A DNA stretch of 64,000 nt from Comamonas thiooxydans (GTDB taxonomy: Bacteria; Pseudomonadota; Gammaproteobacteria; Burkholderiales; Burkholderiaceae_C). Position 1 is the stretch's first letter. Each line of letters opens with the position of its first letter. The stretch is from the NCBI RefSeq assembly GCF_002157685.2, contig NZ_AP026738.1:4588001-4652000 (forward strand), read 5' to 3'. The notes beneath the pieces were generated by a model. It had not been told where the DNA came from, ran no database searches, and saw only the letters and a list, made by a program, of their open reading frames with translations. This document shows positions 6,999 to 41,686 of this stretch, in pieces. A program made the translations under genes and the position numbers.

Positions 6999-7796
6999 AT
7001 GCCTGATCTCATGCACCTGTTGGGCTCCTATATGGACTCCCCTGATGGACCCAGTGTTGTAGCAGCCACTCGGATGCTGGAAAGTGAGCTGTCTTCCGAG
7101 ATGCATCAGCATGCACGCGGTCAATTGTTTGGTTCAATCAAAGGCTTGATCTCCGTGCAGGTCGATGGCGGTCTCTGGGTGGTGCCGGCCATACATGCCG
7201 TTTGGCTTCCTCCCCATCATGCTCACGCGGGGCGCTCTTTCGGCCCCTACCATGGCTGGAGCGCCTATGTGACAGAAGCCGCATGCGCCAATTTGCCGGC
7301 ACAACCCTGCATCATCAGGGTATCGGGCCTGCTGCGCGAAGCGGTGCTGCGTATTGCCGGCTCCATGCCGCAAGCCTCCGATCTATCGAGTCAAGCACAC
7401 TCACATATATGCGCTGTGGTTCTGGACGAGATCAGAAGCCTGCCGGTTGAGGAGTTTGGCCTGCCCATACCAGCAGATGCGCGTCTGCAACGTATCGCCA
7501 GAGCGTTGATAGCCAATCCAGCCGACGAGCGCAACATCGATGACTGGGCAAGTTTCGGGGCCATCAGCTCGCGCACTCTCAGTCGCAGGTTTGTCAGTGA
7601 GACAGGCTTTAATTTCACTGCTTGGCGCCAGCGCGTACGCCTATTGCGATCACTTGAAATGCTGGCCGAAGGCATAAGCATTACAGCCATTGCACTTGAT
7701 CTCGGCTATGCCAGTATCAGCGCCTACATCAGCCTGTTTCGCCGGACCTTCGGTGAAACGCCGGCATGTTACCGATCACGCTTGAAAGACGTTTAG
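6999..7796 (+). CDS. AraC-family transcriptional regulator
   Basis: This 265-residue regulator has an N-terminal cupin-like sensor segment ('LWVVPAIHAVWLPPHHAHAG') and a C-terminal double helix-turn-helix of AraC type ('FGAISSRTLSRRFVSETGFN' and 'IALDLGYASISAYISLFRRT'). It is the usual size for short AraC regulators. It starts 88 bp from the divergent PNPOx-like gene, so local control of that gene is likely. The inducer cannot be predicted. Confidence 0.85.
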   Translation: MPDLMHLLGSYMDSPDGPSVVAATRMLESELSSEMHQHARGQLFGSIKGLISVQVDGGLWVVPAIHAVWLPPHHAHAGRSFGPYHGWSAYVTEAACANLPAQPCIIRVSGLLREAVLRIAGSMPQASDLSSQAHSHICAVVLDEIRSLPVEEFGLPIPADARLQRIARALIANPADERNIDDWASFGAISSRTLSRRFVSETGFNFTAWRQRVRLLRSLEMLAEGISITAIALDLGYASISAYISLFRRTFGETPACYRSRLKDV

Positions 7797-8025: not shown

Positions 8026-9318
8026 TCAGTTCACGGCAGCGCCGGACTCGTACCAGGTCTTGATCAGGTTGCGTTCGTCATCCGACAGAGCCGCAGGGTT
8101 GCCGAAAGGCATCTTCTTCAGCTGAACCACCTGCTGGTAGATCTGCTGAGCGTGCGACTTCACCGCTTCGGGGGAGTCCAGGCGAACCGCTTTTTGCTGG
8201 ATGGCCGTGCCGTGGCACACCACACAATGCTGCTGGAAAATGGCATTGACCTTGGCAAAGCCTTCTCCACCAGCGGCTGCGGGAGCTGCAGCAGGTGACG
8301 CGGCTTCGGCGGCAGGAGTTGCGACTTCAGCTGCAGGGGCTGCGGGGGCCGCAGGAGCAGCCGCTACTGGAGCAGTTGCAGCCACAGGAGCAGGCTTGAG
8401 CCAGACAAACACGGCCAGCAGAGCAGCTACGCCGACAGCAGCGTAAGGCCAGGGGTGGCTGTTGCGACCCAGCTTGTAGCCATGGCGCATCACGAAGAAC
8501 TGGCGAATGGCAGCGCCGGCAAACATCATGCCGATCAGCACCAGCCAGTTCAGCTTGTGGCTGTACAACCAGCCATAGTGATTGGACAGCATGGCGAACA
8601 GCACGGGCAGCGTGAAATAGGTGTTGTGCACGCTGCGCTGCTTGGCACGTTGACCATGACGTGGGTCCACAGGCTCGCCAGCCTTGAGCGAGGCCACCAC
8701 CTTGCGCTGGCCAGGGATGATCCAGAAGAACACGTTGGCGCTCATGGACGTCGCGATCATCGCGCCCATCAGCAGGAAGGCGGCCTGGCCGGGGAAGATG
8801 TGGCAGGCCAGGTAGGCGGCGATACACACCAGAACCAGAACCATGGCACCGACGGTGGCGTCGCCATTCTTCTTCTGGCCGAAAGTGCGGCAGATGAAGT
8901 CATACAGCAGCCAGAAAACCACCAGGAATCCCAGAGCCGAAGCCACGGCAGCGCCGGTGCTCATGGCATTGGGGTCGCCGGGAGTGACCAGATAGATATT
9001 GGCGTTCCAGAGGTAGGAGACCGTCAGCAGGGCAAAACCGGACAGCCACGTGGTGTAGCTTTCCCAGTAGAACCAGTGCAGGTGATCCGGCATCTTGGGA
9101 GGAGACACATTGAACTTGACGGGGTGGTAGAAACCGCCACCGTGCACAGCCCAGAGTTCGCCGTTAACGCCCTGCTTCTTCAGGTCGTCATCCACGGGCG
9201 GCGTCAAGCTGCTGTCCAGGAACACAAAGTAGAAGGAGGAACCGACCCAGGCGATCGCGGTAATGACGTGGAGCCACCGCAACAGCAGGCCGGCCCAGTC
9301 GAGAATGTAGCTTTCCAT
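8026..9318 (-). CDS. puuD: Membrane-bound urate hydroxylase with C-terminal cytochrome c domain (PuuD)
   Basis: This 430-residue protein oxidises urate to 5-hydroxyisourate, passing electrons to a c-type heme instead of making peroxide. It has eight or so membrane segments ('WLHVITAIAWVGSSFYFVFL' near the N-terminus), an Ala/Pro-rich linker of about 50 residues, and a C-terminal periplasmic cytochrome c domain with the heme motif CVVCH. Start 9318 (MESYILDW) is preferred over a 16-residue extension because of AGGTTGAGAG just upstream. It feeds UraH, the UraD domain and PuuE in the same window. An upstream site at 9451 matches the motif shared with other purine genes. Confidence 0.92.
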   Translation of the reverse strand: MESYILDWAGLLLRWLHVITAIAWVGSSFYFVFLDSSLTPPVDDDLKKQGVNGELWAVHGGGFYHPVKFNVSPPKMPDHLHWFYWESYTTWLSGFALLTVSYLWNANIYLVTPGDPNAMSTGAAVASALGFLVVFWLLYDFICRTFGQKKNGDATVGAMVLVLVCIAAYLACHIFPGQAAFLLMGAMIATSMSANVFFWIIPGQRKVVASLKAGEPVDPRHGQRAKQRSVHNTYFTLPVLFAMLSNHYGWLYSHKLNWLVLIGMMFAGAAIRQFFVMRHGYKLGRNSHPWPYAAVGVAALLAVFVWLKPAPVAATAPVAAAPAAPAAPAAEVATPAAEAASPAAAPAAAGGEGFAKVNAIFQQHCVVCHGTAIQQKAVRLDSPEAVKSHAQQIYQQVVQLKKMPFGNPAALSDDERNLIKTWYESGAAVN

Positions 9319-16233: not shown

Positions 16234-17037
16234 TCATGCAGCCACGGCAACCTTGTTCCAGCCGCCGATTTTCTGCAGCCAGCCCAGGCCGGCCTCGGTG
16301 CCGTTGGCGGGCTTGTATTCGCAACCGATCCAGCCGTCGTAGCCGATGCGATCCAGGTGTGCGAACAGGAAGGGGTAGTTGATCTCGCCGGTGCCGGGTT
16401 CGTTGCGACCGGGGTTGTCAGCCAGCTGGATGTGACCGATGCGGCCCAGCTGCTTTTGCATGGTGGCAGCCAGTTCGCCCTCCACGCGCTGGGCGTGGTA
16501 GATGTCGTACTGCACAAAGGCGTTGGGTGCACCCACTTCGTCCAGGATGGACAGGGCATCGTCCGTGCGGTTCAGGTAGAAGCCGGGGATGTCGAAGGGG
16601 TTGATGGGCTCGATCAGCAGGCGGATGTTGGCGGCGCTCAGGGCGGCGGCAGCAAAACGCAGGTTTTCCACGAAAGTGCGGCGCACCACGGCAGCGTCCA
16701 CTCCGGCAGGAACCTTGCCGGCCAGGCAGTTGAGCTGGGGCACACCCAGGGCGTGGGCATAGGTCACCGCCTTGGCCACGCCGGCGCGGAACTCGTCCAC
16801 GCGCTTGGGGTCGCAGGCAATGCCGCGCTCGCCCGCGTCCCAGTCACCTGCTGGCAGGTTGTGCAGAACAATCTTCAGGCCGGTGGCGTCCAGGCGCTCC
16901 TTGATCTCTTCCACGGTGTGAGCGTAGGGGAAGAGAAACTCCACGGCTTCAAAGCCTGCGTTTGCGGCACGCTCAAAACGCTCGAGGAAAGGCACCTCGG
17001 TGAACAACATGCTCAGGTTGGCTGCAAAACGGGGCAT
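16234..17037 (-). CDS. hyi: Hydroxypyruvate isomerase
   Basis: This 267-residue TIM-barrel enzyme interconverts hydroxypyruvate and tartronate semialdehyde. It matches the Hyi family: 'MPRFAANLSMLFTEVPFLER', 'LLIEPINPFDIPGFYLNRTD' and 'GHIQLADNPGRNEPGTGEIN', which holds the metal-binding His/Asp/Glu residues. It lies between gcl and glxR in a conserved glyoxylate operon. Size is standard (about 260). Confidence 0.92.
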   Translation of the reverse strand: MPRFAANLSMLFTEVPFLERFERAANAGFEAVEFLFPYAHTVEEIKERLDATGLKIVLHNLPAGDWDAGERGIACDPKRVDEFRAGVAKAVTYAHALGVPQLNCLAGKVPAGVDAAVVRRTFVENLRFAAAALSAANIRLLIEPINPFDIPGFYLNRTDDALSILDEVGAPNAFVQYDIYHAQRVEGELAATMQKQLGRIGHIQLADNPGRNEPGTGEINYPFLFAHLDRIGYDGWIGCEYKPANGTEAGLGWLQKIGGWNKVAVAA

Positions 17038-17128
17038 GATAAAAGTCTCCGGTAATCGTTAATAGTTGCAGGCGCTAGACGCCAAGCAAGGGCCTAAGCC
17101 GGCCGCGCCACCCCGCAGCGAAGGCGTC

Positions 17129-17168
17129 ACCCCCTCCCACTGGGAGAGGGGGAAGCGGCAAAGCCGCT
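17129..17168. terminator. GC-rich double hairpin in the gcl-hyi gap (family-typical intergenic repeat)
   Basis: CCCCCTCCC / GGGAGAGGGGG and AGCGGC-AAA-GCCGCT form two adjacent hairpins immediately after the gcl stop, in the 147-bp gap before hyi. Similar CCCCCT...AGGGGG repeats follow many genes in Comamonadaceae, and a related one lies at 20003-20090. It may attenuate rather than fully end the operon transcript. Confidence 0.5.
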
Positions 17169-17184
17169 CAGGGGGAGTTTCCTA

Positions 17185-18975
17185 TCAGTCCAGCAGGGCC
17201 AATGCGCTGGGCGCGTCGGCCTTTTCGGTCGCCAGGTCTTCGAACTCGACCACGTTGTCGATTTCGGCGCCCATGGAGATGTTGGTCACACGCTCCAGGA
17301 TGCACTCGATCACCACAGGGGTCTTGTGCTCGGCCATCCAGGCTTCGGCCTGCTGCATGGCAGGGGCAAAGTCTTCGGCGCGATGAACGCGGATGGCCTT
17401 GCAACCCAGACCTTCAACGACCTTAACATGGTCAACGCCGTAGCCGCGGGTCGCATCACCCTCATCCATGTTGATATTGTCGAACGCCAATTGCACGCAA
17501 TAGTCGATCGAGAAAGCGCGCTGTGCCTGACGGATCAGACCCAGGTAGCTGTTGTTCACCAGCACGTGAACATAGGGCAGCTTGAACTGAGCGCCCACGG
17601 CCAGCTCTTCGATCATGAACTGGAAGTCGTAGTCGCCGGACAGCGCCACGATCTTGCGCTGGGGGTCAGCCACACGCACGCCCAGGGCGGCGGGAGTGGT
17701 CCAGCCCAGAGGGCCGGCCTGGCCGCAGTTGATCCAGTTGCGGGGCTTGTACACGTGCAGGAACTGGGCACCGGCGATCTGCGACAGACCGATGGTGGAC
17801 ACATAGGTGGTGTCGCGATCCAGGGTGCGGTTCATGCACTGGTAGACGCGCTGGGGCTTCATCGGCACGTTGTCGAAGTTGGTCTTGCGCAGGTACTCGA
17901 CGCTGTTCTTGCGACCCTGGCACTCGGCCACCCAGGCCTTGCGGCACTTGAGCTTGCCGGCAGCCTTCCACTCCTTGGCGACGGCAACGAATTGCTCCAG
18001 AGCCGCCTTGGCGTCGGAGACGATGCCGTAGTCAGGCGCGAACACGCGGCCGATCTGGGTGGGCTCGATGTCCACGTGGATGAACTTGCGGCCCTTGGTG
18101 TAGACCTCGACCGAGCCGGTGTGGCGGTTGGCCCAGCGGTTGCCGATACCGAACACGAAGTCCGAAGCCAGCATGTTGGCGTTGCCGTAGCGGTGGCTGG
18201 TCTGCAGACCGCACATGCCGACCATCAGGGGGTGATCGTCAGGGACGGTGCCCCAGCCCATCAGGGTGGGGATCACGGGCACGTTCAGGATCTCGGCCAG
18301 CTCGACCATCAGATCGGAAGCATCGGCGTTGATCACACCGCCACCGGAGACCAGCAGGGGACGCTCGGATTCGTTGAGCATCTCGATGGCCTTCTCGGCC
18401 TGCTTGCGCGAAGCTGCTGGCTTGTAGGCAGGCAGGGGCTCGTAGGTGTCGATATCGAACTCGATCTCGGCCAGCTGCACGTCGATGGGCAGATCGATCA
18501 GCACGGGGCCGGGGCGGCCGGAGCGCATCAGGTGGAAAGCCTGCTGGAAGGCGCGGGGCACCTGGGCGGGTTCCAGCACGGTGGTGGCCCACTTGGTCAC
18601 GGGCTTGGCGATGGAGGCGATGTCCACGGCCTGGAAGTCTTCCTTATGCAGACGCGAGCGAGGTGCCTGACCGGTAATGCACAGGATTGGAATGGAGTCG
18701 GCGCTGGCCGAGTACAGACCGGTGATCATGTCGGTGCCGGCAGGGCCGCTGGTGCCGATACACACGCCGATATTGCCGGCCACAGCACGGGTGTAGCCTT
18801 CGGCCATGTGGCTGGCGCCTTCGACGTGACGGGCCAGAATGTGACCGATGCCGCCGTGGTTCTTCATTGCAGCGTACAGCGGGTTGATGGCCGCGCCGGG
18901 CACACCAAACGTCACGGTTACACCTTCTTTTTCGAGCACCAGGACTGCGGCGTCGATTGCTTTCATTTTGGCCAT
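17185..18975 (-). CDS. gcl: Glyoxylate carboligase (tartronate-semialdehyde synthase)
   Basis: This 596-residue ThDP enzyme condenses two glyoxylates to tartronate semialdehyde and CO2. The N-terminal pyrimidine-binding domain has '[20 protein letters not shown]' and '[13 protein letters not shown]', in which the usual catalytic Glu of ThDP enzymes is a Val, a feature specific to Gcl. The central FAD-type domain and C-terminal '[20 protein letters not shown]' (ThDP/Mg motif) complete the enzyme. First gene of gcl-hyi-glxR, divergent from a LysR regulator with an operator-like dyad between. It links allantoin-derived glyoxylate to glycerate. Confidence 0.95.
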
Positions 18976-33765: not shown

Positions 33766-33855
33766 GGAGGTTTGGGTGAGTGGTTTAAACCAGCAGTCTT
33801 GAAAACTGCCGAAGGAGTGATCCTTCCGTGAGTTCGAATCTCACAGCCTCCGCCA
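33766..33855 (+). tRNA. tRNA-Ser (anticodon TGA)
   Basis: The 90-nt sequence folds as a class II tRNA: acceptor GGAGGTT pairs with AGCCTCC, anticodon arm GCAGT-CTTGAAA-ACTGC with TGA anticodon, a long variable arm (GAAGG/CCTTC) and the T-loop GTTCGAATC, then discriminator G and encoded CCA. The 3' end forms the left attachment core of the adjoining prophage; the gene is kept intact. Its expected downstream terminator lies beyond the prophage at 41662. Confidence 0.97.
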
Positions 33856-34149
33856 GTCGTTAGGAAAAGCTGCCAGCATGGCCTTCAGGCCCTCGGCGGC
33901 TTTTTTTTCGTCCTCGTTCTCAGAGCCTTCGAGGTCTTCGAGCATCGCGCTCGTGAACGCGTGTGCAGGGTCTTCGCCCAGTACCGCCCGCAGCTTTCCC
34001 CTCACTCTCCAGTTCACATGGCGCTTGCCTTGCTTCATCTGCGTGATGTGGCTCTTCGGTATTCCGGTGATGTCGGCTAGTCGTGTCTGACTTCCTACTG
34101 CCTCTGCCGCTTTTTCGATCAGTAGACTAATTTCTTCGTTTGTTGCCAT
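33841..34149 (-). CDS. Prophage XRE-type repressor (DUF3693-like), ending inside attL
   Basis: This 102-residue protein has a helix-turn-helix 'GSQTRLADITGIPKSHITQM' and a tail resembling phage repressor-like DUF3693 proteins. It is divergent from the ssDNA-binding gene, with TTTGAT repeats between, and is the likely lysogeny repressor. Start 34149 follows GAGGA. Its last four codons (WRRL) lie in the 14-bp att core and its TGA stop uses two bases of host tRNA outside the core. In an excised circle the frame would instead continue for 41 codons (YLKDRLRR...) antisense to the recombinase gene. Confidence 0.82.
   Translation of the reverse strand: MATNEEISLLIEKAAEAVGSQTRLADITGIPKSHITQMKQGKRHVNWRVRGKLRAVLGEDPAHAFTSAMLEDLEGSENEDEKKAAEGLKAMLAAFPNDWRRL
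33843..33856. repeat. attL core (14-bp direct repeat)
   Basis: ACAGCCTCCGCCAG at the tRNA-Ser 3' end recurs exactly at 41638-41651. The copies bound the inovirus genes, so they are read as attL and attR. The core also encodes the last codons of the prophage repressor on the minus strand. Confidence 0.9.
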
Positions 34150-34199
34150 TTTGATAAATCCTCTGTAGCATCCAGTTGCCAATTTGATAATTTGATCAA
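34149..34199. promoter_or_regulatory. Repressor/ssb divergent control region with TTTGAT repeats
   Basis: Three related words, TTTTGATAAA (34149), TTTGATAAT (34183) and TTTGATCAA (34191, including the palindrome TTGATCAA), sit between the divergent repressor and ssDNA-binding gene. They are natural candidates for repressor operators. Confidence 0.5.
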
Positions 34200-34230
34200 T
34201 TTGGTTACGCAAAGTCTACAGGAGCGATCA

Positions 34231-34539
34231 ATGATTCAAGTCTCGGTGAAGTCGACCGACGTCCGCAACCAAAGCGGCAATGCAAAAGCCTCCGGCAAGC
34301 CCTACAGCCTGAACTTTCAGACCGTCTGGGTTCACACGGTTGACCGCAATGGCAACCCCAATCCGTACCCCGAAAAAACCGAGGTCATCCTCGAAAAGAA
34401 CGAACAGGGCGCAGCTCTGTTTTATCCCGTGGGCGAATACACGTTCGCTCCAGCATCGATCTACGTGTCCCGCACTGGCGATCTGGCTCTCAGCCCCAAG
34501 CTGGTGCCGATCAAGCCTAAAGCTGTCTCTGCGCAGTAA
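34231..34539 (+). CDS. Filamentous phage ssDNA-binding protein (gpV-type)
   Basis: This 102-residue protein resembles helix-destabilising proteins of filamentous phages: 'SGNAKASGKPYSLNFQTVWV', 'KTEVILEKNEQGAALFYPVG' and a proline/lysine tail. It coats single-stranded progeny DNA before packaging. It is the first rightward gene after the repressor, the usual location, with AGGAGCG before ATG 34231. Confidence 0.78.
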   Translation: MIQVSVKSTDVRNQSGNAKASGKPYSLNFQTVWVHTVDRNGNPNPYPEKTEVILEKNEQGAALFYPVGEYTFAPASIYVSRTGDLALSPKLVPIKPKAVSAQ

Positions 34540-34550
34540 AGGGTCGCGTC

Positions 34551-34742
34551 ATGGAAACCGCAGCACGCGAGGCCATGGCTCAAGGGGCGCTTCTGGCGCT
34601 CCTTTTTGCATGGAACGAACACCAGCCGCCCGGCGTCAAGGCAGACCGCGTGACGGTCACTTTGCACATTGATGACGGCGTGACGTACAGCGAGGTCACG
34701 TACTGGGCCGGTGATCACGCTATCGGCGGTGAGGGCTTCTGA
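34551..34742 (+). CDS. Small prophage protein, unknown
   Basis: This 63-residue protein (METAAREAMAQGALLALLFA...) has an N-terminal Ala/Leu-rich helix and a C-terminal part 'VTVTLHIDDGVTYSEVTYWA' that looks like a beta-rich segment. It starts 12 bp after the ssDNA-binding gene and its stop overlaps the next start. I do not recognise the family. Confidence 0.6.
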   Translation: METAAREAMAQGALLALLFAWNEHQPPGVKADRVTVTLHIDDGVTYSEVTYWAGDHAIGGEGF

Positions 34743-34864
34743 TGAGCGCTCTCGATCTCGCTTTTGCGCTTCTGGGCCTTGGAATGGTTGCCTGCAACTC
34801 ATTTGTTGGCTTCTGCTTTGTGGCCTTTCTCTGGGTCATCACTCGTTTTCCGGTGGTTGCATGA
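34742..34864 (+). CDS. Small prophage membrane protein
   Basis: This 40-residue protein (MSALDLAFALLG...) is almost entirely one hydrophobic helix. Its ATG overlaps the preceding stop (TGATGA arrangement) and its TGA overlaps the next ATG, a packed chain that supports translation. It could be a minor virion or inner-membrane accessory protein. Confidence 0.55.
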   Translation: MSALDLAFALLGLGMVACNSFVGFCFVAFLWVITRFPVVA

Positions 34865-35085
34865 GTGAGATTGGCCGCATTGCCCCCGTGCCTGAACGGC
34901 TCAAATTTGCCCCCAGCAATGGGGCGCAATACCTCGACTATCTGCGCGCTCGTGCCCATGAGCTGGACTTCCCTCCAGCTCGTAAAAACCTCCCGCCCGA
35001 CTACGACCAGCAGTGCTACCAAGCGCACTGCGCTTTGCGTCGTCATGCGGTGTACCTGATCGAAGTGGGGGTGCGCCATGTCTGA
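34861..35085 (+). CDS. Small prophage protein, unknown
   Basis: This 74-residue protein (MSEIGRIAPVPERLKFAPSN...) starts at an ATGA overlap and ends 8 bp into the next gene. The sequence 'GAQYLDYLRARAHELDF' suggests a helix; it is soluble and basic. No family recognised. Confidence 0.6.
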   Translation: MSEIGRIAPVPERLKFAPSNGAQYLDYLRARAHELDFPPARKNLPPDYDQQCYQAHCALRRHAVYLIEVGVRHV

Positions 35086-35257
35086 GCAGGCTCGTTTTCT
35101 TGAGAAAACCCGTCACATGCTTGAGTCCGTGTCGAAGAGATTTGGCCCTTCTCATTCGTGGACGATTTTCTGGCGTCAAGAGTGCCAGCGTGAAGCTGGT
35201 TATCTGATTTCAGGCGCTTATTGCTCAGGTGTCTGCGGCTGGGGGTGGAAAGCATGA
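35078..35257 (+). CDS. Small prophage protein, unknown
   Basis: This 59-residue protein (MSEQARFLEKTRHMLESVSK...) overlaps the previous gene by 8 bp and the next by 4 bp. It is charged at the N-terminus and Trp/Gly/Cys-rich at the C-terminus ('YCSGVCGWGWKA'). Function unknown. Confidence 0.6.
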   Translation: MSEQARFLEKTRHMLESVSKRFGPSHSWTIFWRQECQREAGYLISGAYCSGVCGWGWKA

Positions 35258-35874
35258 CTGAGGTCTCCGTTCTCTTCGCGCGCTCCGACTCTTGTTACAA
35301 CGACCTGGCTGCAGATGTGTGGGACATCCGTCGCGATGCCCGCAACTACGCCGGTAGCAACCCGGTCGTTTGCCATCCTCCTTGCCGTGGCTGGGGTCGT
35401 CTGCGTCATCTGGCAAAACCCCGTCCCGACGAAAAGGCCTTGGCTCTCTTTGCGGTTGAGCAGGTTCGTCGTTGCGGTGGAGTTCTCGAGCATCCGCTCG
35501 GTTCTGCGCTTTGGCCTGAGGCTGGCCTGCCCGTACCTGGGTTGGTGGATGAATTCGGTGGCTGGACTCTTCGCGTAGATCAGGGCTGGTGGGGTCACCC
35601 AGCGCCTAAGCCGACATACCTCTACATGGTCGGAATCACACGCGAGCAGGTCGGTGAGTTGCCTGTTCAGTTACACCGAGCTGGAGGCCGGACGGTTGCA
35701 CTCTCCGCTGCTGAACGCGAACGCACGCCGATAGCCTTCGCGCAGTTTCTCGTCGGCCTCGCCAGTGTCAGCCAGGTCGGTGTAACAGTGGCTCCAGCTC
35801 GCAGTAACAGCGACCTGGCTGCGCAATCCGCTGCGGCAAAACGTGCGGCATTCCGTGCATGGGCGGGCGCATGA
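35254..35874 (+). CDS. Prophage protein with PPC motif, possibly methyltransferase-like
   Basis: This 206-residue protein contains 'VVCHPPCRGWGRLRHLAKPR' and 'RCGGVLEHPLGSALW', an arrangement reminiscent of the PPC/catalytic and 'ENP'-like motifs of cytosine-5 DNA methyltransferases, and 'DEFGGWTLRVDQGWWGHPAP'. The canonical S-adenosylmethionine motif (FxGxG) is not seen, so enzymatic function is unproven. It overlaps both neighbours by ATGA, between early genes and rep. It could alter phage DNA, or only share a fold. Confidence 0.6.
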   Translation: MTEVSVLFARSDSCYNDLAADVWDIRRDARNYAGSNPVVCHPPCRGWGRLRHLAKPRPDEKALALFAVEQVRRCGGVLEHPLGSALWPEAGLPVPGLVDEFGGWTLRVDQGWWGHPAPKPTYLYMVGITREQVGELPVQLHRAGGRTVALSAAERERTPIAFAQFLVGLASVSQVGVTVAPARSNSDLAAQSAAAKRAAFRAWAGA

Positions 35875-36905
35875 ACTGGATTCAAAGAGTCGAAGCCCTG
35901 CCTCAGGGGCCATTCAAATTCGATGAGTCGAAATTTGAGCCCTGGGCGCACGTTCAATACAAGGGTGTGTCTCCACGCATGGCGGCTGCTCGTGCGCGCT
36001 ACGTGGCCCGTTCTGAGGCTAATGCGCGTGTCCAGCATGCACGCATGGCCGCGTTGTTGGGCGAGGCGCAGGCAGCGCGCGAAGCGCGCGGGCTTGTCTC
36101 ACTATCAACAACTTGCAAGAGTGGAAATTCAGGTCTTTCGGCTGTTGATTTCTTGGCTCAAGAGAGCATAGAGATTGACCACCAAAAGGCCCGCATCACG
36201 CGCATGCAAAAGAGTGTGGGTATCTCGGCCAAAGCCCTGCACAACCTGGGCAAGAAAAATCAGCGCGTTTGGATGCTCACGCTGACCTATCGCGGCACAA
36301 ACCGCGATTGGAGAGCAGAGCACATCAGCCGCTATCTCGATGGCCTGCGCAAGTGGCACTACAGCCGCACCGGCTGCAAAAAGGTTCGCTATGTCTGGGT
36401 CGCTGAGCTGCAAAAGCGAGGCGTCATCCATTACCACGTGTGCGTGTGGCTGGACAACGGCCTGACCCCTCCAAAGCCAGATAGCGCCTGGAAGAAGAAG
36501 GGCGCATTTCAAGCGCCCATGTGGGCACATGGCATGTCAAACCGGGTACGTGCAACACATCCCGTTGCGTACCTCATGAAGTACGCCAGCAAAGGCACAT
36601 CAGAAGGGAAGTTTCCGCATGGCGCTCGCATCAGTGGTGTTGGTGGGCTTGATGAAGTTGGCCGTGGTTGCCGTCGCTGGGTTCTGTGGCCTGCGTATGT
36701 GCAGGGCAATGCTTCGATCAAAGACAAGTTCAGACCTGCGCCGGGAGGCGGCTATCTCAATGCTGAGACGGGCGAACTCTTACGGTCTGAGTTCGTGCCA
36801 ACGGGCGGCGGTTTTACGCGATTTGTGCGCGTCAGGACAACGCCTAGACGGCTTGAAAACGTCGGGGGGCCGTTCGAGTGGCTTCCCGATGCCTCGGCTC
36901 ATTGA
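35871..36905 (+). CDS. Rolling-circle replication initiator (HUH Rep, gpII-type)
   Basis: This 344-residue endonuclease starts phage plus-strand synthesis by nicking the origin. It has 'RVWMLTLTYRG' (motif 1), the HUH metal motif 'RGVIHYHVCVWLDNG' and the catalytic tyrosine region 'VAYLMKYASKGTSEG' (Y-x3-K-Y type). Start overlaps the previous stop. A cluster of inverted repeats directly after the gene at 36898-36953 is a candidate origin or terminator. Confidence 0.88.
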   Translation: MNWIQRVEALPQGPFKFDESKFEPWAHVQYKGVSPRMAAARARYVARSEANARVQHARMAALLGEAQAAREARGLVSLSTTCKSGNSGLSAVDFLAQESIEIDHQKARITRMQKSVGISAKALHNLGKKNQRVWMLTLTYRGTNRDWRAEHISRYLDGLRKWHYSRTGCKKVRYVWVAELQKRGVIHYHVCVWLDNGLTPPKPDSAWKKKGAFQAPMWAHGMSNRVRATHPVAYLMKYASKGTSEGKFPHGARISGVGGLDEVGRGCRRWVLWPAYVQGNASIKDKFRPAPGGGYLNAETGELLRSEFVPTGGGFTRFVRVRTTPRRLENVGGPFEWLPDASAH

Positions 36906-36953
36906 ATGAGGAGGGGCCCCCGCTTGCGGGGAGGTGCCTCATTCGATGAGGTG
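36898..36953. repeat. Triple hairpin region after rep, candidate phage origin or terminator
   Basis: CTCATT-G-AATGAG (36898-36910), then CCCCCGC-TTG-CGGGG, then CCTCATTCGATGAGG form three adjacent dyads, and the outer two resemble each other. Filamentous phage origins contain such hairpins near rep or in the intergenic region, but the position equally allows a terminator. No T-run follows. Confidence 0.5.
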
Positions 36954-36983
36954 GTTCTTTGGATGACATGAGGAGACGGTTAG

Positions 36984-37106
36984 ATGAATTGCGACAACTG
37001 TGGGGCTGAGTTTGACGCCGAAGACATTGATTGGGACATGGAGGGCGATGGTGATGACATCGAAGGTCAATGTTCTGAGTGTGGCTCCAAGGAAATTCAT
37101 TCGTGA
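36984..37106 (+). CDS. Small prophage zinc-ribbon-like protein
   Basis: This 40-residue protein has CDNC near the N-terminus and CSEC near the C-terminus around an acidic centre ('DAEDIDWDMEGDGDD'), a minimal two-CxxC zinc ribbon. GAGGAGAC precedes the ATG and its stop overlaps the next GTG. It is shorter than typical annotation limits but well supported by context. Role unknown, possibly regulatory. Confidence 0.6.
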   Translation: MNCDNCGAEFDAEDIDWDMEGDGDDIEGQCSECGSKEIHS

Positions 37107-37315
37107 AATTCATCACCTGCGCCGCTGATGTACTGCCTTGCCCTCTGGATCAACAGCAGCTCGTGTCGCTGGCTGAGCTGGTGGCAGAAGCAGTCGCCCA
37201 GATTGATGCCGCGTCCATTGCGCAAGCCTATGCGTTTGGAGCTGGGTCTGTCGCTACGTGGTGGGGCTTTGGCTATGCCTTGGCGGTCGCAATCAAAGCT
37301 GTCAACAAAGCTTAG
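37103..37315 (+). CDS. Minor coat-like prophage protein
   Basis: This 70-residue protein begins with GTG in a TCGTGA overlap with the previous stop. A soluble helix ('SLAELVAEAVAQIDAASIAQ') is followed by one membrane segment ('GAGSVATWWGFGYALAVAI') and a short basic end, as in minor coat proteins placed before the major coat gene. Confidence 0.62.
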   Translation: MKFITCAADVLPCPLDQQQLVSLAELVAEAVAQIDAASIAQAYAFGAGSVATWWGFGYALAVAIKAVNKA

Positions 37316-37399
37316 CCGGTAGGGGCCTTTGCAGGCTCACTCCGGGTGCGCTTTCTTGAGCACCGATTTTCAAACTTCAACCTTAGTAAAGGAAAAATC

Positions 37400-37534
37400 A
37401 TGACCGAAATCTTTGCAGCAATCGACCTGAGCACTGTGGCAACCGCCGTCATCGGCATTGGCGTGGTGGTGATGGCCATCACCATGTCCTACAAGGGCAT
37501 TGATCTGGGCAAGCGTGGCGTGAAGAAGGCCTAA
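37400..37534 (+). CDS. Major coat protein (pVIII-type)
   Basis: This 44-residue protein has the layout of mature filamentous coat proteins: short acidic N-terminus (MTEIFAAIDL), one hydrophobic helix ('TAVIGIGVVVMAITM') and a basic C-terminus ('GIDLGKRGVKKA') that contacts DNA. No cleavable signal is apparent, as in Pf3-type phages. AAAGGAAAA precedes ATG 37400. The position before the pIII-like gene is typical. Confidence 0.82.
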   Translation: MTEIFAAIDLSTVATAVIGIGVVVMAITMSYKGIDLGKRGVKKA

Positions 37535-37544
37535 GGGGTAGGCC

Positions 37545-37640
37545 ATGCTTACAGGGGCACTGATTGTTTTCATAAAGGTCATTGCGGCCTTGATTGGGGC
37601 AATCAGTGCCCTTGTCTTTTGCTTGATGGTGCGGCCATGA
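37545..37640 (+). CDS. Small hydrophobic prophage protein (pIX/pVII-like)
   Basis: This 31-residue protein (MLTGALIVFIKV...) is nearly one membrane helix ending in a basic 'MVRP'. It lies between the major coat and pIII-like genes, 10 bp after the former and overlapping the latter by 4 bp, matching the tiny tip proteins of filamentous phages. Shorter than usual annotation limits. Confidence 0.6.
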   Translation: MLTGALIVFIKVIAALIGAISALVFCLMVRP

Positions 37641-38989
37641 AGCGCATATTCAGGTTTCTTATTTCGTTGACATTGGCTCTGCTGGGTTGTTCAGCCTTGG
37701 CACAGACTTGTCAAATCGCGTCCAGTCAGATCGGTGGCGTGATGGTCTATGGCGAAATGAATATTTGCAGTACAGCGGCTTCCCGATACAACCCTCCGCT
37801 TAGTGTCACAAGTTTCCGAATTGTGAACTCACAAATTGAGTGCCGGGGGCCAAGCAAGCAGGGTGATGGCTCTACTGTTGACGTAGTGAAGCTGTATGCC
37901 GATTACAGCGTTCGCCCGTGCCCGGTTTGTCCTTCCGGTCAGACTTTCGACAAAACGGCGGGGCAGTGTGTTGCTTCTCAACAGTGCTCCGGTGTTTCGT
38001 CCTATTGCTCCACATTGAAGGGCAGTGTTGCCATGTTTGAGAGGCCGGGGCAAGTCGATATGTCCGGCGGCTCCTGCTTGAAGGCTCCCGATTTTCAAAG
38101 CTGCAGCCAGGGGTGCGCGACCTCCGCGGTCGGCATGGGCGTGCAGTACAAAAACAATGCTGGGCAGTGGATGAGCGCGCAGGAATTGAAGGTTACGGGC
38201 GGCACTTGCAATGTGCCTCCTGAGTCCGATCAGCCGGCCCAAAAAGATACCGATTGCGCTGGCGGCTATGCCGAGATGAACGGCGTCAAAAAGTGCGTTC
38301 CTGCCGAGGCAGCAAAGGGCGACACCAAAGAGAAAACCACCGAAAAAGCAGACGGCTCAAAAGAGACGGTGAAGACAGAAACCAAGTGCGAAAACGGCGT
38401 CTGCGAAACCACCAAAACCACCACCAAAACTAATGCAGACGGAAGCAAGAGTGTGGACTCTTCCAAGACCTCTCAAGACCAGAACAGCTATTGCTCCAAG
38501 AACCCTACGAGCACTGTCTGTGCGGCTGCAAACGGTGGCAAGAATCCTGGCTCTGGTGGGTCTGGTTCTGGCTCCGGGAGCGGCTCTGGGACCGGGTCTG
38601 GCAATGGCGACGGCAGCGGCAATTGCACGGGTGATAAGTGCGAGGGAAACGGTAATGGAAGCGGCAACGGCTCGACCACTGTGGAAGTGCCGGATATCGA
38701 GGTGAAAAAGCTCTATGAGCGCAAGTACCCAGAGGGCATTAAGAGTGCTTGGAATAGCTCGGGAATCAAGGCTGCATCAGGCAAATTTGAGGCGCTTGCA
38801 GCTGCGTTTGTGCCGCCTTGGCAGGATGCAAAAGGCCAGTGTCAGAGCTTTGGAATGAGCGTTGATGTGGGCTTCGTGAGCTTTGGCCGGCACGACTTCT
38901 CGCCGCCTTGCTCTATCTGGCTTTTCATCTGGGTTTGCATGCAAGTTGGCGCGCTGCTCCTGTTCCGCGCTCTGGTGTTTGGAGGCTAG
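37637..38989 (+). CDS. Adsorption protein, pIII/TspB-like
   Basis: This 450-residue protein is the likely tip protein that binds the host receptor. It has a signal peptide ('ISLTLALLGCSALAQ'), a Cys-rich N-terminal domain, a charged Lys/Thr/Glu stretch, a Gly/Ser repeat linker around residues 300-350 ('GSGGSGSGSGSGTG'), and a C-terminal membrane anchor ('IWLFIWVCMQVGALLLF'). Overall it resembles G3P and the neisserial TspB group. Receptor specificity cannot be inferred. Confidence 0.8.
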   Translation: MKRIFRFLISLTLALLGCSALAQTCQIASSQIGGVMVYGEMNICSTAASRYNPPLSVTSFRIVNSQIECRGPSKQGDGSTVDVVKLYADYSVRPCPVCPSGQTFDKTAGQCVASQQCSGVSSYCSTLKGSVAMFERPGQVDMSGGSCLKAPDFQSCSQGCATSAVGMGVQYKNNAGQWMSAQELKVTGGTCNVPPESDQPAQKDTDCAGGYAEMNGVKKCVPAEAAKGDTKEKTTEKADGSKETVKTETKCENGVCETTKTTTKTNADGSKSVDSSKTSQDQNSYCSKNPTSTVCAAANGGKNPGSGGSGSGSGSGSGTGSGNGDGSGNCTGDKCEGNGNGSGNGSTTVEVPDIEVKKLYERKYPEGIKSAWNSSGIKAASGKFEALAAAFVPPWQDAKGQCQSFGMSVDVGFVSFGRHDFSPPCSIWLFIWVCMQVGALLLFRALVFGG

Positions 38990-38991
38990 AA

Positions 38992-39465
38992 ATGCAGCTA
39001 CTGATAACGCTGATTTTGATGCTGCTCGCCATGCCTGCATGGTCCGCAGGCGATAGCGGCTCAGGCGACGCGAACACGGGAATACTGTCCAAGATATCTG
39101 CGGCCATCGATCAGGTTGTCGCCTACATCAAGGGCATCTTTGAGAGCATCAAGAAGTTCGTTGATTGGCTCGGGAAAATATTCTTGGAGGTGTTCTCTGC
39201 CCTCTGGGACATGATTACGGATGCCTTCGTATGGTTGCTAGAAGGTGTGTTCAAGCTGGCGGCCGGCCTGCTTGATGGTGTCGCTGATGGCTTCGGATTT
39301 GCAGAGCTTAAGAGCACGTTCTTGAACGTTTGGAACCAGATTCCGCCGGAGGTCATTGCAATGATGCAAGTCATCGGGGTTCCATCGGCGTTCAGCATCG
39401 TGGTGCTGGGTATCCTGATTCGCATCTCAATGCAGCTCATACCGTTCGTAAGGCTTGGCTCATGA
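38992..39465 (+). CDS. pVI-like minor virion protein (DUF2523-type)
   Basis: This 157-residue protein has a signal-like hydrophobic start, an amphipathic middle ('FESIKKFVDWLGKIFLEVFS') and a C-terminal membrane helix ('PSAFSIVVLGILIRISMQLI'). This arrangement matches DUF2523 proteins next to zot in filamentous phages. It starts 2 bp after the pIII-like stop and overlaps zot by 4 bp. Confidence 0.78.
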   Translation: MQLLITLILMLLAMPAWSAGDSGSGDANTGILSKISAAIDQVVAYIKGIFESIKKFVDWLGKIFLEVFSALWDMITDAFVWLLEGVFKLAAGLLDGVADGFGFAELKSTFLNVWNQIPPEVIAMMQVIGVPSAFSIVVLGILIRISMQLIPFVRLGS

Positions 39466-40727
39466 TCAACCTGCTTGAAGGCGTTCCCGGCTCAGGCAAG
39501 AGCTATGAGGCCGTGGTCTACCACGTGCTGCCAGCGCTGCAGAGTGGTCGCAAGGTCATCACAAACCTGCCGCTCATTATGGAAGCGTGGCAGTTCCTGT
39601 ATCCCGATTTGGTGCCACTCATTGAGCTGCGTAGATCAAGCGCGCCAGTCCTTGGAAAGTGGGATGCTGAGGCTGCAAACAGAGGTGAGCAGGCTTATAT
39701 CGTCGGTGAGTTTGATGGTGAGGCTACAGGCAAGACAGAAGACGATTTGCCTTGTCAGCAGCCTCCGGCTAACACGCGCTTGTTTGGTTCCGTCTGGGAC
39801 TTCTACAGCACATGGCGCGGTAAGAACAATATTGGCCCGCTGTATGTCATTGATGAATGCCATGTGAGCTTTCCAAAGATCACTAGGCGCAATCCGATGG
39901 GCACGCCAGAGCAGATCATTCAGTGGTTCAAAATCAGCCGTCACTTCGGCGCTGATGTGCTACTGATGACCCAGCGTATGGGCGCGCTGGATGAAGACAT
40001 TGCCGGCCTGGCTGAATTCCATGTGCGGGTTCGTAAAGCGGCATTTCTGGGGCGTCCGCAGAACTATGTGCGCAAGACCTTCGCGGGCCTCAAGGGCGGT
40101 GAAGTCAGCAGCGAAGAGCGTGAGTACCTGAGCCAATATTTCCCACTGTACAAGAGCCATACGCAAGGCAGCACAGTCAAGGAAGCATCTGTGCAGGACG
40201 TAAACCCTGCCTATCTGAAATGGCGCAAATGGAGCCGGATTTTCTTTGTCCTGGGCGCTCTGTTCTTGGGCTGGACGCTCTACAAGATCTTCTTTGCCGA
40301 CAGCAAGCCCAAAATGGCCGCGCTGCAGACCGCAAACACGCCTAAGCCGCTCCTGCCATCCATGAAGCCGGCGCAGCCACAAATCGCGCCTGCGCCCGCG
40401 TCAGTGCCTTCGCAGGAGGCTTCGAAGGCTCCAGAGGCACCGTCGAGGCGCTCAATGGGGCCTGACCCTCTCGAAAACCGTTTAATTCATCTGACGGGCT
40501 GTATGGAGAGCAGCAAGACACATGATCGCGTCTGCACTCTGACGGTGAGCCAGAACGGCATGCCCATATTCCACATCACGAATAAAGAGCTGGAACAGGT
40601 CGGGTTTCAGTTTAAGTACCTAGGCCACTGCGCCGCGCATCTGAGCTGGGACGGCGTTATGCGGGCCGTAGTCTGCGATTCACCCAGCGTGGGGATGCGA
40701 GTCGCAGGCGTCAAAAACTCCAGCTGA
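39462..40727 (+). CDS. zot: Zot/pI-type assembly ATPase
   Basis: This 421-residue inner-membrane ATPase drives phage extrusion. It carries Walker A 'LLEGVPGSGKSYEAVVYHVL', Walker B 'LYVIDECHVSF', a sensor-like 'ADVLLMTQRMGALD', a membrane segment ('IFFVLGALFLGWTLYKIFF', about residues 262-281) and a periplasmic C-terminus with paired Cys. The name reflects the V. cholerae zonula occludens toxin domain; assembly is the known phage role. The gene starts at an ATGA overlap. Confidence 0.92.
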   Translation: MINLLEGVPGSGKSYEAVVYHVLPALQSGRKVITNLPLIMEAWQFLYPDLVPLIELRRSSAPVLGKWDAEAANRGEQAYIVGEFDGEATGKTEDDLPCQQPPANTRLFGSVWDFYSTWRGKNNIGPLYVIDECHVSFPKITRRNPMGTPEQIIQWFKISRHFGADVLLMTQRMGALDEDIAGLAEFHVRVRKAAFLGRPQNYVRKTFAGLKGGEVSSEEREYLSQYFPLYKSHTQGSTVKEASVQDVNPAYLKWRKWSRIFFVLGALFLGWTLYKIFFADSKPKMAALQTANTPKPLLPSMKPAQPQIAPAPASVPSQEASKAPEAPSRRSMGPDPLENRLIHLTGCMESSKTHDRVCTLTVSQNGMPIFHITNKELEQVGFQFKYLGHCAAHLSWDGVMRAVVCDSPSVGMRVAGVKNSS

Positions 40728-41038
40728 TGGGGGTATCGGGGGCTGCGCCCCTGATGTCAACCGTCGATCAGGCATTGCCAGTTACACCGACCTGGCTGCA
40801 AGCGGCACCTTCCGCAGTTACATGGACCTGGTTCGCGTGGCGCGCTTCTGGCAAAGATCGGGCCTTCGCTCCGTGTCCTGAGAACAACCGCCGTAGGCGC
40901 TCAATCCCCAGCAAGTGATTGTGCTCACTTTTTGGTAGCGCATTTTCGCTATGAAAAGAGAAGCTGCAACGCTAATTCAGGCCTCAAGAATTGCCTGTCT
41001 CAATAGCATTCCAACTATCAAAACAACGGAGAGAGAAA
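40728..41038. other. Prophage intergenic region with hairpin and repeated GTTACA..GACCTGG motifs
   Basis: About 310 bp separate zot and the recombinase. ATCGGGGGC-TGC-GCCCCTGAT at 40735-40755 is a near-perfect hairpin. GTTACACCGACCTGGCTGCA at 40781 and GTTACATGGACCTGGTTCGC at 40817 are copies of a motif also found at 35294, 35804 and inverted at 35769-35786. A 63-codon frame from 40727 overlaps these repeats and I do not accept it as a gene. The region may contain replication or packaging signals. Confidence 0.5.
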
Positions 41039-41611
41039 TTGCTGATTGGATATGCTCGCGTTAGCACTCAGGAGCAGGACACTTCAGTGCAGATTGCTGC
41101 GTTAAATGCTGCAGGAGTTCACACGATATTTGAAGAGAAAGCTAGTGGTGCAAAGTTTGATCGTCCTGTTCTTCGGCAGTGTCTTGCCTCGTTGAAAACG
41201 GGAGATCAGTTCGTTTTTTATAAGCTCGATCGCGTTGCACGATCTCTGTCGGATCTGTTGAAAATTCTTGATCGAGTGGAACGGGCCGGGGCCGCAATTC
41301 GTTCGCTGACAGAGCCAATTGATACCACTACGCCAACTGGACGATTGATGCTTCAGATTCTGGGAGCTATGGCGGAATTTGAGCGCTCTTTGATTCGGGA
41401 GCGATGCATGGCCGGTCAGAAGGAGGCCATGTCCCGAGGGGTGCACTGTGGTCGTGCTCTTTCGGTCGATGCTGCAACTGCTGTTGCGATTGTGGATGCT
41501 TACGCTACTGGCCTATATACCTTGAAGGGTGTGGCTCAGCGATTTGGAGTTTCTGATTCGGTCGTGAAGCGCCTTGTCTACAAGAAGACAAAGCCTGATT
41601 ACCGCTCTTGA
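41039..41611 (+). CDS. Prophage serine recombinase (resolvase/invertase family)
   Basis: This 190-residue recombinase has the catalytic serine in 'IGYARVSTQEQ', the 'YKLDRVARS' arginine motif, 'GAMAEFERSLIRERCMAGQ' and a C-terminal helix-turn-helix. The start is a TTG at 41039 with GGAGAGA upstream; a TTG at 40991 is an alternative. It ends 26 bp before attR, the normal place for an integrase gene, and no tyrosine integrase is present. Small resolvases rarely target tRNA genes, so its role as the integrase is an inference. Confidence 0.85.
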   Translation: MLIGYARVSTQEQDTSVQIAALNAAGVHTIFEEKASGAKFDRPVLRQCLASLKTGDQFVFYKLDRVARSLSDLLKILDRVERAGAAIRSLTEPIDTTTPTGRLMLQILGAMAEFERSLIRERCMAGQKEAMSRGVHCGRALSVDAATAVAIVDAYATGLYTLKGVAQRFGVSDSVVKRLVYKKTKPDYRS

Positions 41612-41637
41612 AGTCCGTCGAAGTCTGTCCTTTAGGT

Positions 41638-41651
41638 ACAGCCTCCGCCAG
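41638..41651. repeat. attR core (14-bp direct repeat)
   Basis: ACAGCCTCCGCCAG duplicates the tRNA-Ser 3' end at 33843-33856. It marks the right end of the prophage. Confidence 0.9.
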
Positions 41652-41661
41652 ATAAAAAGAT

Positions 41662-41686
41662 AAGCCATTGATTTTCAATGGCTTTT
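41662..41686 (+). terminator. Terminator of tRNA-Ser displaced by the prophage
   Basis: AAGCCATTGA / TCAATGGCTT with a short loop and T-run lies 11 bp after attR. It probably ended the tRNA-Ser transcript before integration. From 41687 to 41907 I see no gene. Confidence 0.8.

Follow-up and report, generated by a model that had tools for sequence, protein, structure and literature searches.

The repressor frame of a filamentous prophage in Comamonas thiooxydans runs through the attachment (att) core of the phage, ends at a stop that the host completes, and would be longer in the excised circle. The window analysed here, 64,000 nt of contig NZ_AP026738.1 (positions 4,588,001 to 4,652,000 of assembly GCF_002157685.2), contains this prophage of 7.8 kb at 33843–41651, with the 14-bp repeat ACAGCCTCCGCCAG on both flanks; the left copy completes a tRNA-Ser gene at its 3' end. 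In the circle the frame gains a tail that lies antisense within the gene of a small serine recombinase (PF00239), the presumed integrase. We put at about 0.6 the probability that this tail handicaps the repressor in the circle and that integration removes the handicap.

The repressor frame in prophage and circle

Minus-strand translation of the prophage repressor ends in FPNDWRRL-TGA. WRRL lies inside the core, and the stop consists of host bases 33841–33842 and core base 33843. When the two phage arms were joined in silico, the frame continued as WRRL-YLKDRLRRTSRAV...QGI-TAG, a gain of 41 codons that gives 143 residues rather than 102; the TAG is the antisense of the CTA at 41513–41515. A sequence-only reading of the window had claimed that the repressor crosses the 14-bp core where tRNA-Ser has its 3' end, that WRRL is encoded by the core and that the TGA uses two host bases; coordinates and translation bear this out. 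The 41 further codons that it placed antisense to the recombinase were reproduced by joining the arms; the tail stop that it put near 41517 is indeed a TAG, at the position just given.

The phage attachment site (attP) predicted for the excised circle is GGTACAGCCTCCGCCAGTCG. Metagenomic contig L006 has a 95-bp terminal direct repeat and is for that reason taken as a circle of 7537 bp; a repressor frame of 143 codons, the length predicted for the window phage, runs across its junction GGTACAGCCTCCGCCAG. An attP unlike the predicted junction had been named as grounds for giving up the idea, and this circular relative has the predicted junction.

The open tail frame is weak evidence on its own, because codon-aligned antisense frames stop only at TTA, CTA and TCA. 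In the recombinases of the window-like phages, 44 of 344 upstream leucine and serine codons are antisense stops, a rate at which an opening of some 40 codons would be unsurprising (an estimate rather than a computed value). The openness of the tail was therefore dropped as a significant observation in itself.

Both repressor forms among relatives

Repressor relatives came from IMG/VR (14 loci, then 3 more), from GTDB species genomes (10 loci, two of them chance-like Streptomyces matches over 47 residues), from 16 of 53 genomes of the genus, the window's own included, from the family (19 of 399 genomes at an E-value of 1e-8) and from two other genera (1 of 5 and 4 of 29 genomes). An order-wide sample at 1e-12 gave repressor matches in 3 of 399 genomes, all of the window's genus, and a search of plasmids for the repressor gave no match. 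Recombinase relatives were gathered in separate searches. The window-like phages form group W, at tRNA-Ser with anticodon TGA where scanned, and a second set, group B, lies at tRNA-Ser with anticodon GCT where scanned. At 12 of 13 further loci scanned a tRNA-Ser stands at the junction, L048 having none.

Prophage repressors of the relatives read antisense across the tRNA end and finish in WRRL-stop, WRKRRDSNPR-stop or variants of these. Seventeen loci were entered into a comparison of the two forms and 16 were readable, L015 being without the anchor motif; in all 16 the circle form is the longer, with 31–63 codons counted from the start of the core against 4–19. Junctions in which both phage arms and the core are contiguous number seven, and the frame is extended in six (L006, L008, L018, L026, L065, L106) and not in L003; tandem prophages instead of circles may account for some of the seven. 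The repressor is intact in four of the seven (L003, L006, L065, L106), three of which are extended, and the long frames of L065 and L106 amount to 150 and 137 aa. Judged by eye, 15 of 16 long forms end uncharged, against 8 of 16 short forms; this is suggestive only, compatible with a degradation signal and no evidence for one.

Repressors with a long linker (L052–L054, L094) also carry the frame through the core. The repressor of L106 (3074–3487) is of another type, 29% identical to that of L065, and is in frame with a group W recombinase. Such other-type repressors (L106, L098) sit at a like att arrangement, in frame across the core, which suggests that repressors are exchanged as modules upstream of a 3' end that stays constant.

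In L048 (G037:C1:4111500–4122242) and L005 the left core adjoins no tRNA gene and lies beside unidentified DNA, which gives the prophage repressor a different end of eight residues, CPLKSSPD. Elements are perhaps stacked at one tRNA site here, since an uninterrupted tRNA-Ser site is present at 4030258 of genome G037 as well.

Phase of the tail

In 22 phages the core lies closely behind the recombinase gene, and in all 22 the tail is antisense to the recombinase with its codons aligned. From the conserved KR codons of the recombinase to the end of the core, 21 of them have 48, 54, 60, 75, 78, 84, 99 or 102 nt, all divisible by three; the exception, L052, has 79 nt and reads the core in the +1 repressor frame, so that alignment is restored. 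Noncoding spacers are 24, 42 and 63 nt in group W, and 24, 27, 33, 48, 51 and a compensated 28 nt in group B phages of equal recombinase length. Some seven noncoding length changes have thus all kept the frame, one of them by way of the repressor. If phase were free, and the changes independent, the chance of this would be ∼(1/3)^7, about 5 in 10,000. The median open length is 45 codons in the aligned frame (22 frames) against 16 in the other two antisense frames (44 frames).

A stop hotspot in the recombinase gene

The tail frequently stops opposite one particular leucine codon of the recombinase, and CTA or TTA is much commoner there than at other leucines. Leucine column 186 of the group B recombinases is encoded by CTA or TTA in 12 of 19 sequences (CTA in 7, TTA in 5), as compared with 23 of 374 other leucines; the corresponding column of group W is 180, with CTA in 10 of 13, as compared with 29 of 232. 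After dereplication at 85% identity the figures are 11/18 against 21/353 and 6/9 against 21/164, respectively. The next-highest fully conserved leucine columns reach 4/19 in group B (12 columns in all) and 5/13 in group W (15 columns in all). Recombinases identical to another locus over the last 300 nt, and the truncated L017, were omitted from these rows. Between the hotspot and the gene end antisense stops are rare, 2/68 against 44/344 in group W and 0/67 against 53/578 in group B. Of the three group W phages without CTA at column 180, two were readable, and both have the stop three columns away (L093 at 177, L106 at 183).

Loci without a core on the contig have CTA or TTA at the hotspot in 6 of 7 cases in group B (column 186) and in 2 of 3 in group W; this is no true held-out test, because the column was first spotted in a set that included L009, L011 and L014. 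Among the loci added afterwards (L112, L115, L116, L122), three of four have CTA or TTA at column 186.

The phase and the stop sites are the reason for regarding the long tail as more than chance, and they suggest that the long form has been kept by selection. As far as the alignments go, it is the presence of the tail, its frame and, less strictly, its end that are kept; its residues are not. Conserved tail residues were looked for and rejected, since third-position diversity is not reduced in the overlap.

Evidence weighing against the switch

Several observations speak against a tail that is selected as a handicap, and the clearest is Dulem virus 61 (L003, PP511899.1), a complete circular free phage whose recombinase is 77.1% and whose repressor is 62.5% identical to that of the window phage. 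As in the window phage, recombinase and repressor converge around the core, here GCCTCCGCCAG, but a stop follows directly after the core of its own attP (WRRR-TGA), just where the prophage form ends, so that there is no long form. The switch is consequently not universal. A free homologue ending at the same residue had been named in advance as damaging to the proposal; that applies to Dulem virus 61 and not to L006. Behind its TGA the frame is still aligned and runs to a CTA codon, and a secondary or recent loss, for example through more tRNA sequence taken into attP, would be one way to account for this arrangement. In the distant L004 and L055, at another site, a stop lies inside the repeat and the repressor should stay unchanged on integration. 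A stop built there from host bases was considered and rejected, as the common 9-bp word TGAATTACG already contains the stop.

The statistical evidence has weak points of the same bearing. The hotspot columns were picked after the data had been seen, and the sequences share ancestry. Twelve group B phages have the core behind the recombinase, and six of them (L018, L023, L052, L054, L091, L094) lack the hotspot stop, their frames ending elsewhere. In the overlap, diversity at fourfold-degenerate third positions shows no reduction (0.552 against 0.590, P = 0.17; 0.634 against 0.649, P = 0.33). L048, L049 and L063 have another antisense frame open for at least 90 codons; L018 and L026, which are included in the phase count, carry damaged repressors; and the frame of L098 is extended into a tail that lies in noncoding DNA. 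Eight distant recombinases were set apart as an outgroup and seven were counted, L058 having no leucine at column 186: none of the seven leucines is CTA or TTA. This is a weak control, because at the outgroup rate of 35/198 zero in seven would turn up in roughly a quarter of cases, and it lowered our confidence slightly, from 0.62 to 0.60 for the handicap and, for a state-specific overlapping gene as discussed below, from an even chance to just under one.

Terminators at the junctions

The phage appears to bring its own intrinsic terminator, placed antisense within the 3' end of the repressor gene (Table 1), where its T8 tract is the antisense of repressor residues EKK. Of 19 phage left arms, 18 have a hairpin before a T-run (z ≤ −3.0 against letter shuffles); in the remaining one, L094, the simple scan picked another T-run. 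The counterpart in L003 has z −5.5, and in L053, L054 and L098 a hairpin lies nearer the core, and the frame still runs through it. From its position, the phage terminator would stop transcription from tRNA-Ser in the prophage, and from the recombinase gene in the circle. Integration would also swap terminators, the phage one passing to tRNA-Ser and the presumed host one coming to stand behind the recombinase. The T8 tract (33901–33908) is an A8 run in the repressor coding strand, which might permit transcriptional slippage and further repressor forms.

Prophage layout

The gene set, from Pfam and PHROG matches, comprises a single-stranded DNA (ssDNA)-binding protein, a rolling-circle initiator, a DUF2523 protein, Zot/pI proteins and a resolvase-type serine recombinase. 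It includes the Inoviridae hallmarks, namely the Zot/pI ATPase, the rolling-circle initiator and the ssDNA-binding protein, and the relative Dulem virus 61 is classed in Inoviridae. The repressor matches the PHROG transcriptional regulator family phrog_638 (E-value 1e-8); its Pfam matches, HTH_3 and YdaS_toxin, are weak and both under the curated cut-off. An alternative recombinase start is possible at 41039.

A query of 154 nt made by joining the host flanks found an uninterrupted site over 144–154 nt, at 89–95% identity, in genomes G007, G011, G050, G037, G029 and G047; some match was present in 44 of 53 genomes, many of the matches stopping near the core.

Four near-identical 18-nt copies of GTTACANCGACCTGGCTG, where chance would give none, lie at 35294–35311, 35769–35786, 35804–35821 and 40781–40798. 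Three are within the phrog_12600 gene and one is upstream of the recombinase, and they are possible binding sites. The chromosome of the window also carries a second filamentous prophage, L004 (G000:C1, ∼2308688–2317300; repressor 8688–8972, recombinase 16540–17202), with a repressor 38% identical and a related recombinase, beside a gene like those for short-chain dehydrogenases.

Table 1. Features of the prophage and its junctions (window coordinates; HTH, helix-turn-helix)
Feature	Position	Strand	Basis or remark
Host target tRNA-Ser (anticodon TGA), whose 3' end the att core restores	33766–33855	+	ARAGORN
Repressor, prophage (short) form, 102 aa, HTH-like	33841–34149	−	stop completed by host bases 33841–33842
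Left att core (attL), 14 bp; minus strand encodes WRRL and supplies the T of the stop TGA	33843–33856		direct repeat D2; translation
Phage-supplied intrinsic terminator, antisense within repressor 3' end	33862–33912	+	fold −23.0 kcal/mol, z −3.1
Candidate operators at repressor start: GTTGCCATTTTGATAA, GTTGCCAATTTGATAA, near-palindrome AATTTGATCAATTT	34142–34202		putative function
ssDNA-binding protein, divergent from repressor	34231–34539	+	Phage_DNA_bind PF02303, E 9e-10
Rolling-circle replication initiator	35859–36905	+	PF23343, E 6e-27
DUF2523 protein, presumed minor coat protein	38992–39465	+	PF10734, E 6.5e-8
Zot/pI-like assembly ATPase	39462–40727	+	PF05707, E 3e-29
Resolvase/invertase-type small serine recombinase, presumed integrase	40991–41611	+	Pfam Resolvase PF00239, E 1e-42; PHROG DNA invertase, E 7e-61
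Circle-only repressor tail, 41 codons and TAG	41513–41638	−	antisense, codon-aligned to recombinase 3' end
Right att core (attR)	41638–41651		direct repeat D2
Presumed original host tRNA-Ser terminator, displaced to attR	41662–41684	+	z −6.7

Discussion

At the level of sequence we regard as established the DNA rearrangement, the long frames in real attP-bearing relatives, the kept phase and the stop hotspot. The mechanism that we propose for them runs as follows. The repressor gene converges with the integrase gene, and attP sits within its 3' end; the integrase would join the short attP core to the tRNA-Ser 3' end, which is identical to it. As long as the phage is a circle, translation of the repressor would continue across the core and add a tail of 41 residues, encoded antisense within the integrase gene; integration would sever the tail, and the stop completed by the host would yield the short form. 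If the long form is weaker, less stable or functionally different, and the short form is the one that maintains the prophage, full repression, with its effect on lysogeny, would wait for integration. The tail probably acts by its presence, for example as a C-terminus that destabilizes or interferes, and not by folding into a domain, because its specific residues are not conserved. Not quite an even bet is the further proposition that this is a state-specific overlapping gene, a tail antisense to the integrase that would exist only in the closed circle and would serve as a removable handicap coupling repressor strength to integration. The integration-dependent switch proposed by the sequence-only reading stands as regards the change of C-terminus, with phase and stop hotspot in its favour, and fails in the free relative Dulem virus 61.

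The mycobacteriophage BPs, with its integration-dependent immunity, is a double-stranded DNA tailed phage. Its attP, as in the window phage, lies within the repressor frame, and integration trims gp33 from 136 to 103 residues, a loss of 33 as compared with 41 (143 to 102) here (PMC4557955). Also in keeping with BPs, the free form is by sequence the longer in all 16 readable loci, with Dulem virus 61 as an exception among the other relatives. Repressor and integrase point in the same direction in BPs, by contrast with the convergent genes here and their tail antisense inside the integrase gene, and an ssrA-like tag and instability have been demonstrated there (PMC4557955). By analogy, BPs may serve as a functional model for the switch in the window phage.

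Filamentous phages in which integration alters the repressor have been published before. In the Ralstonia phage phiRSS0, attP lies at the 3' end of a reverse-oriented regulator gene, as here, and a new stop trims the C-terminus of ORF13 from 156 to 130 residues on integration, from which a two-form hypothesis was drawn (PMC3816273). In XacF1 of Xanthomonas the putative regulator ORF12 has attP in its coding region and is split by integration; this regulator has an effect on prophage stability (PMC5666396). Both phages use host XerC/D at dif, unlike the window phage with its own recombinase and tRNA-Ser core, and the portion of the phiRSS0 source available to us describes no antisense overlap with an integrase (PMC3816273). 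The integration unit of the window phage resembles instead that of the filamentous Ralstonia phages phiRSM1, phiRSM3 and phiRs551, which have a resolvase-like serine recombinase, a 13-bp core equal to the tRNA-Ser 3' end, and attP between integrase and repressor (PMC3816273, PMC4471427, PMC5608472); the window recombinase belongs to PF00239, and its core is likewise a tRNA-Ser 3' end. The repressor frame of the window phage changes on integration, unlike ORF15 of phiRSM, which is stated to be unchanged (PMC3816273, PMC4471427, PMC5608472), and unlike the phiRs551 repressor (7458–7748), which stops short of the core (7410–7422), with both genes on one strand. phiRSM1 and phiRSS0 were compared by their published descriptions. 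In the open-licence literature as far as it was accessible, PMC6813254 and PMC10011098 included, we found no integration-dependent repressor tail described as lying antisense to an integrase; within that limit, the union of a repressor change with a phiRSM-type serine-recombinase/tRNA-Ser unit, its tail antisense inside the integrase gene, appears to be new.

The overlap could be incidental, with attP and a terminator squeezed between convergent genes, the last residues of the repressor dispensable and the circle tail functionless. Dulem virus 61, which stops at the core, fits this explanation, as do the want of conservation in the tail residues and the frequency with which codon-aligned antisense frames are open. 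We nevertheless consider it unlikely: it does not account for the phase kept in 22 of 22 phages despite some seven changes in noncoding length, including one for which the repressor compensates, nor for the stop hotspot, nor for a core that is read through by long-linker and other-type repressors as well. Less plausible still, and in our view improbable, is selection on a signal, in DNA or RNA, close to the 3' end of the recombinase gene, such as a binding site or an antisense promoter, that mimics stop and frame. The same CTA hotspot codon in 10 of 13 group W phages would suit such a signal, but the hotspots of groups W and B occupy different places in the recombinase, group B mixes CTA and TTA, and a local signal leaves the kept phase unexplained.

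Somewhat better placed than the incidental overlap, though still doubtful, is the idea that the long form is functional in a different role, for instance in controlling host genes, holding back replication of the circle or aiding recombination, with the short form reserved for immunity. It is close to the published phiRSS0 hypothesis and, as a version of the two-form explanation, its odds overlap with those of the handicap. It draws on the proposal of Yamada (2013) for phiRSS0 ORF13 (PMC3816273), on the unstable prophage that results when the 5' part of XacF1 ORF12 is deleted (PMC5666396) and on BPs, whose long form binds DNA as the short one does (PMC4557955). A working tail would be expected to show residue constraint, and none is seen. 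We therefore continue to prefer a tail that handicaps the repressor in the circle until integration removes it.

Integration-dependent repressor forms are experimental for BPs and only proposed for filamentous phages that use dif, according to the sources cited above. The Comamonadaceae clade of serine-recombinase filamentous phages adds evolutionary traces that both forms count, and the antisense tail in the integrase gene ties the repressor and integrase genes together. The two-form hypothesis of Yamada becomes testable in environmental bacteria with small phage genomes. Annotation of a prophage yields the short repressor only, which is a warning for the reading of such elements. If the proposal is true, the repressor protein itself may report whether the virus has integrated.
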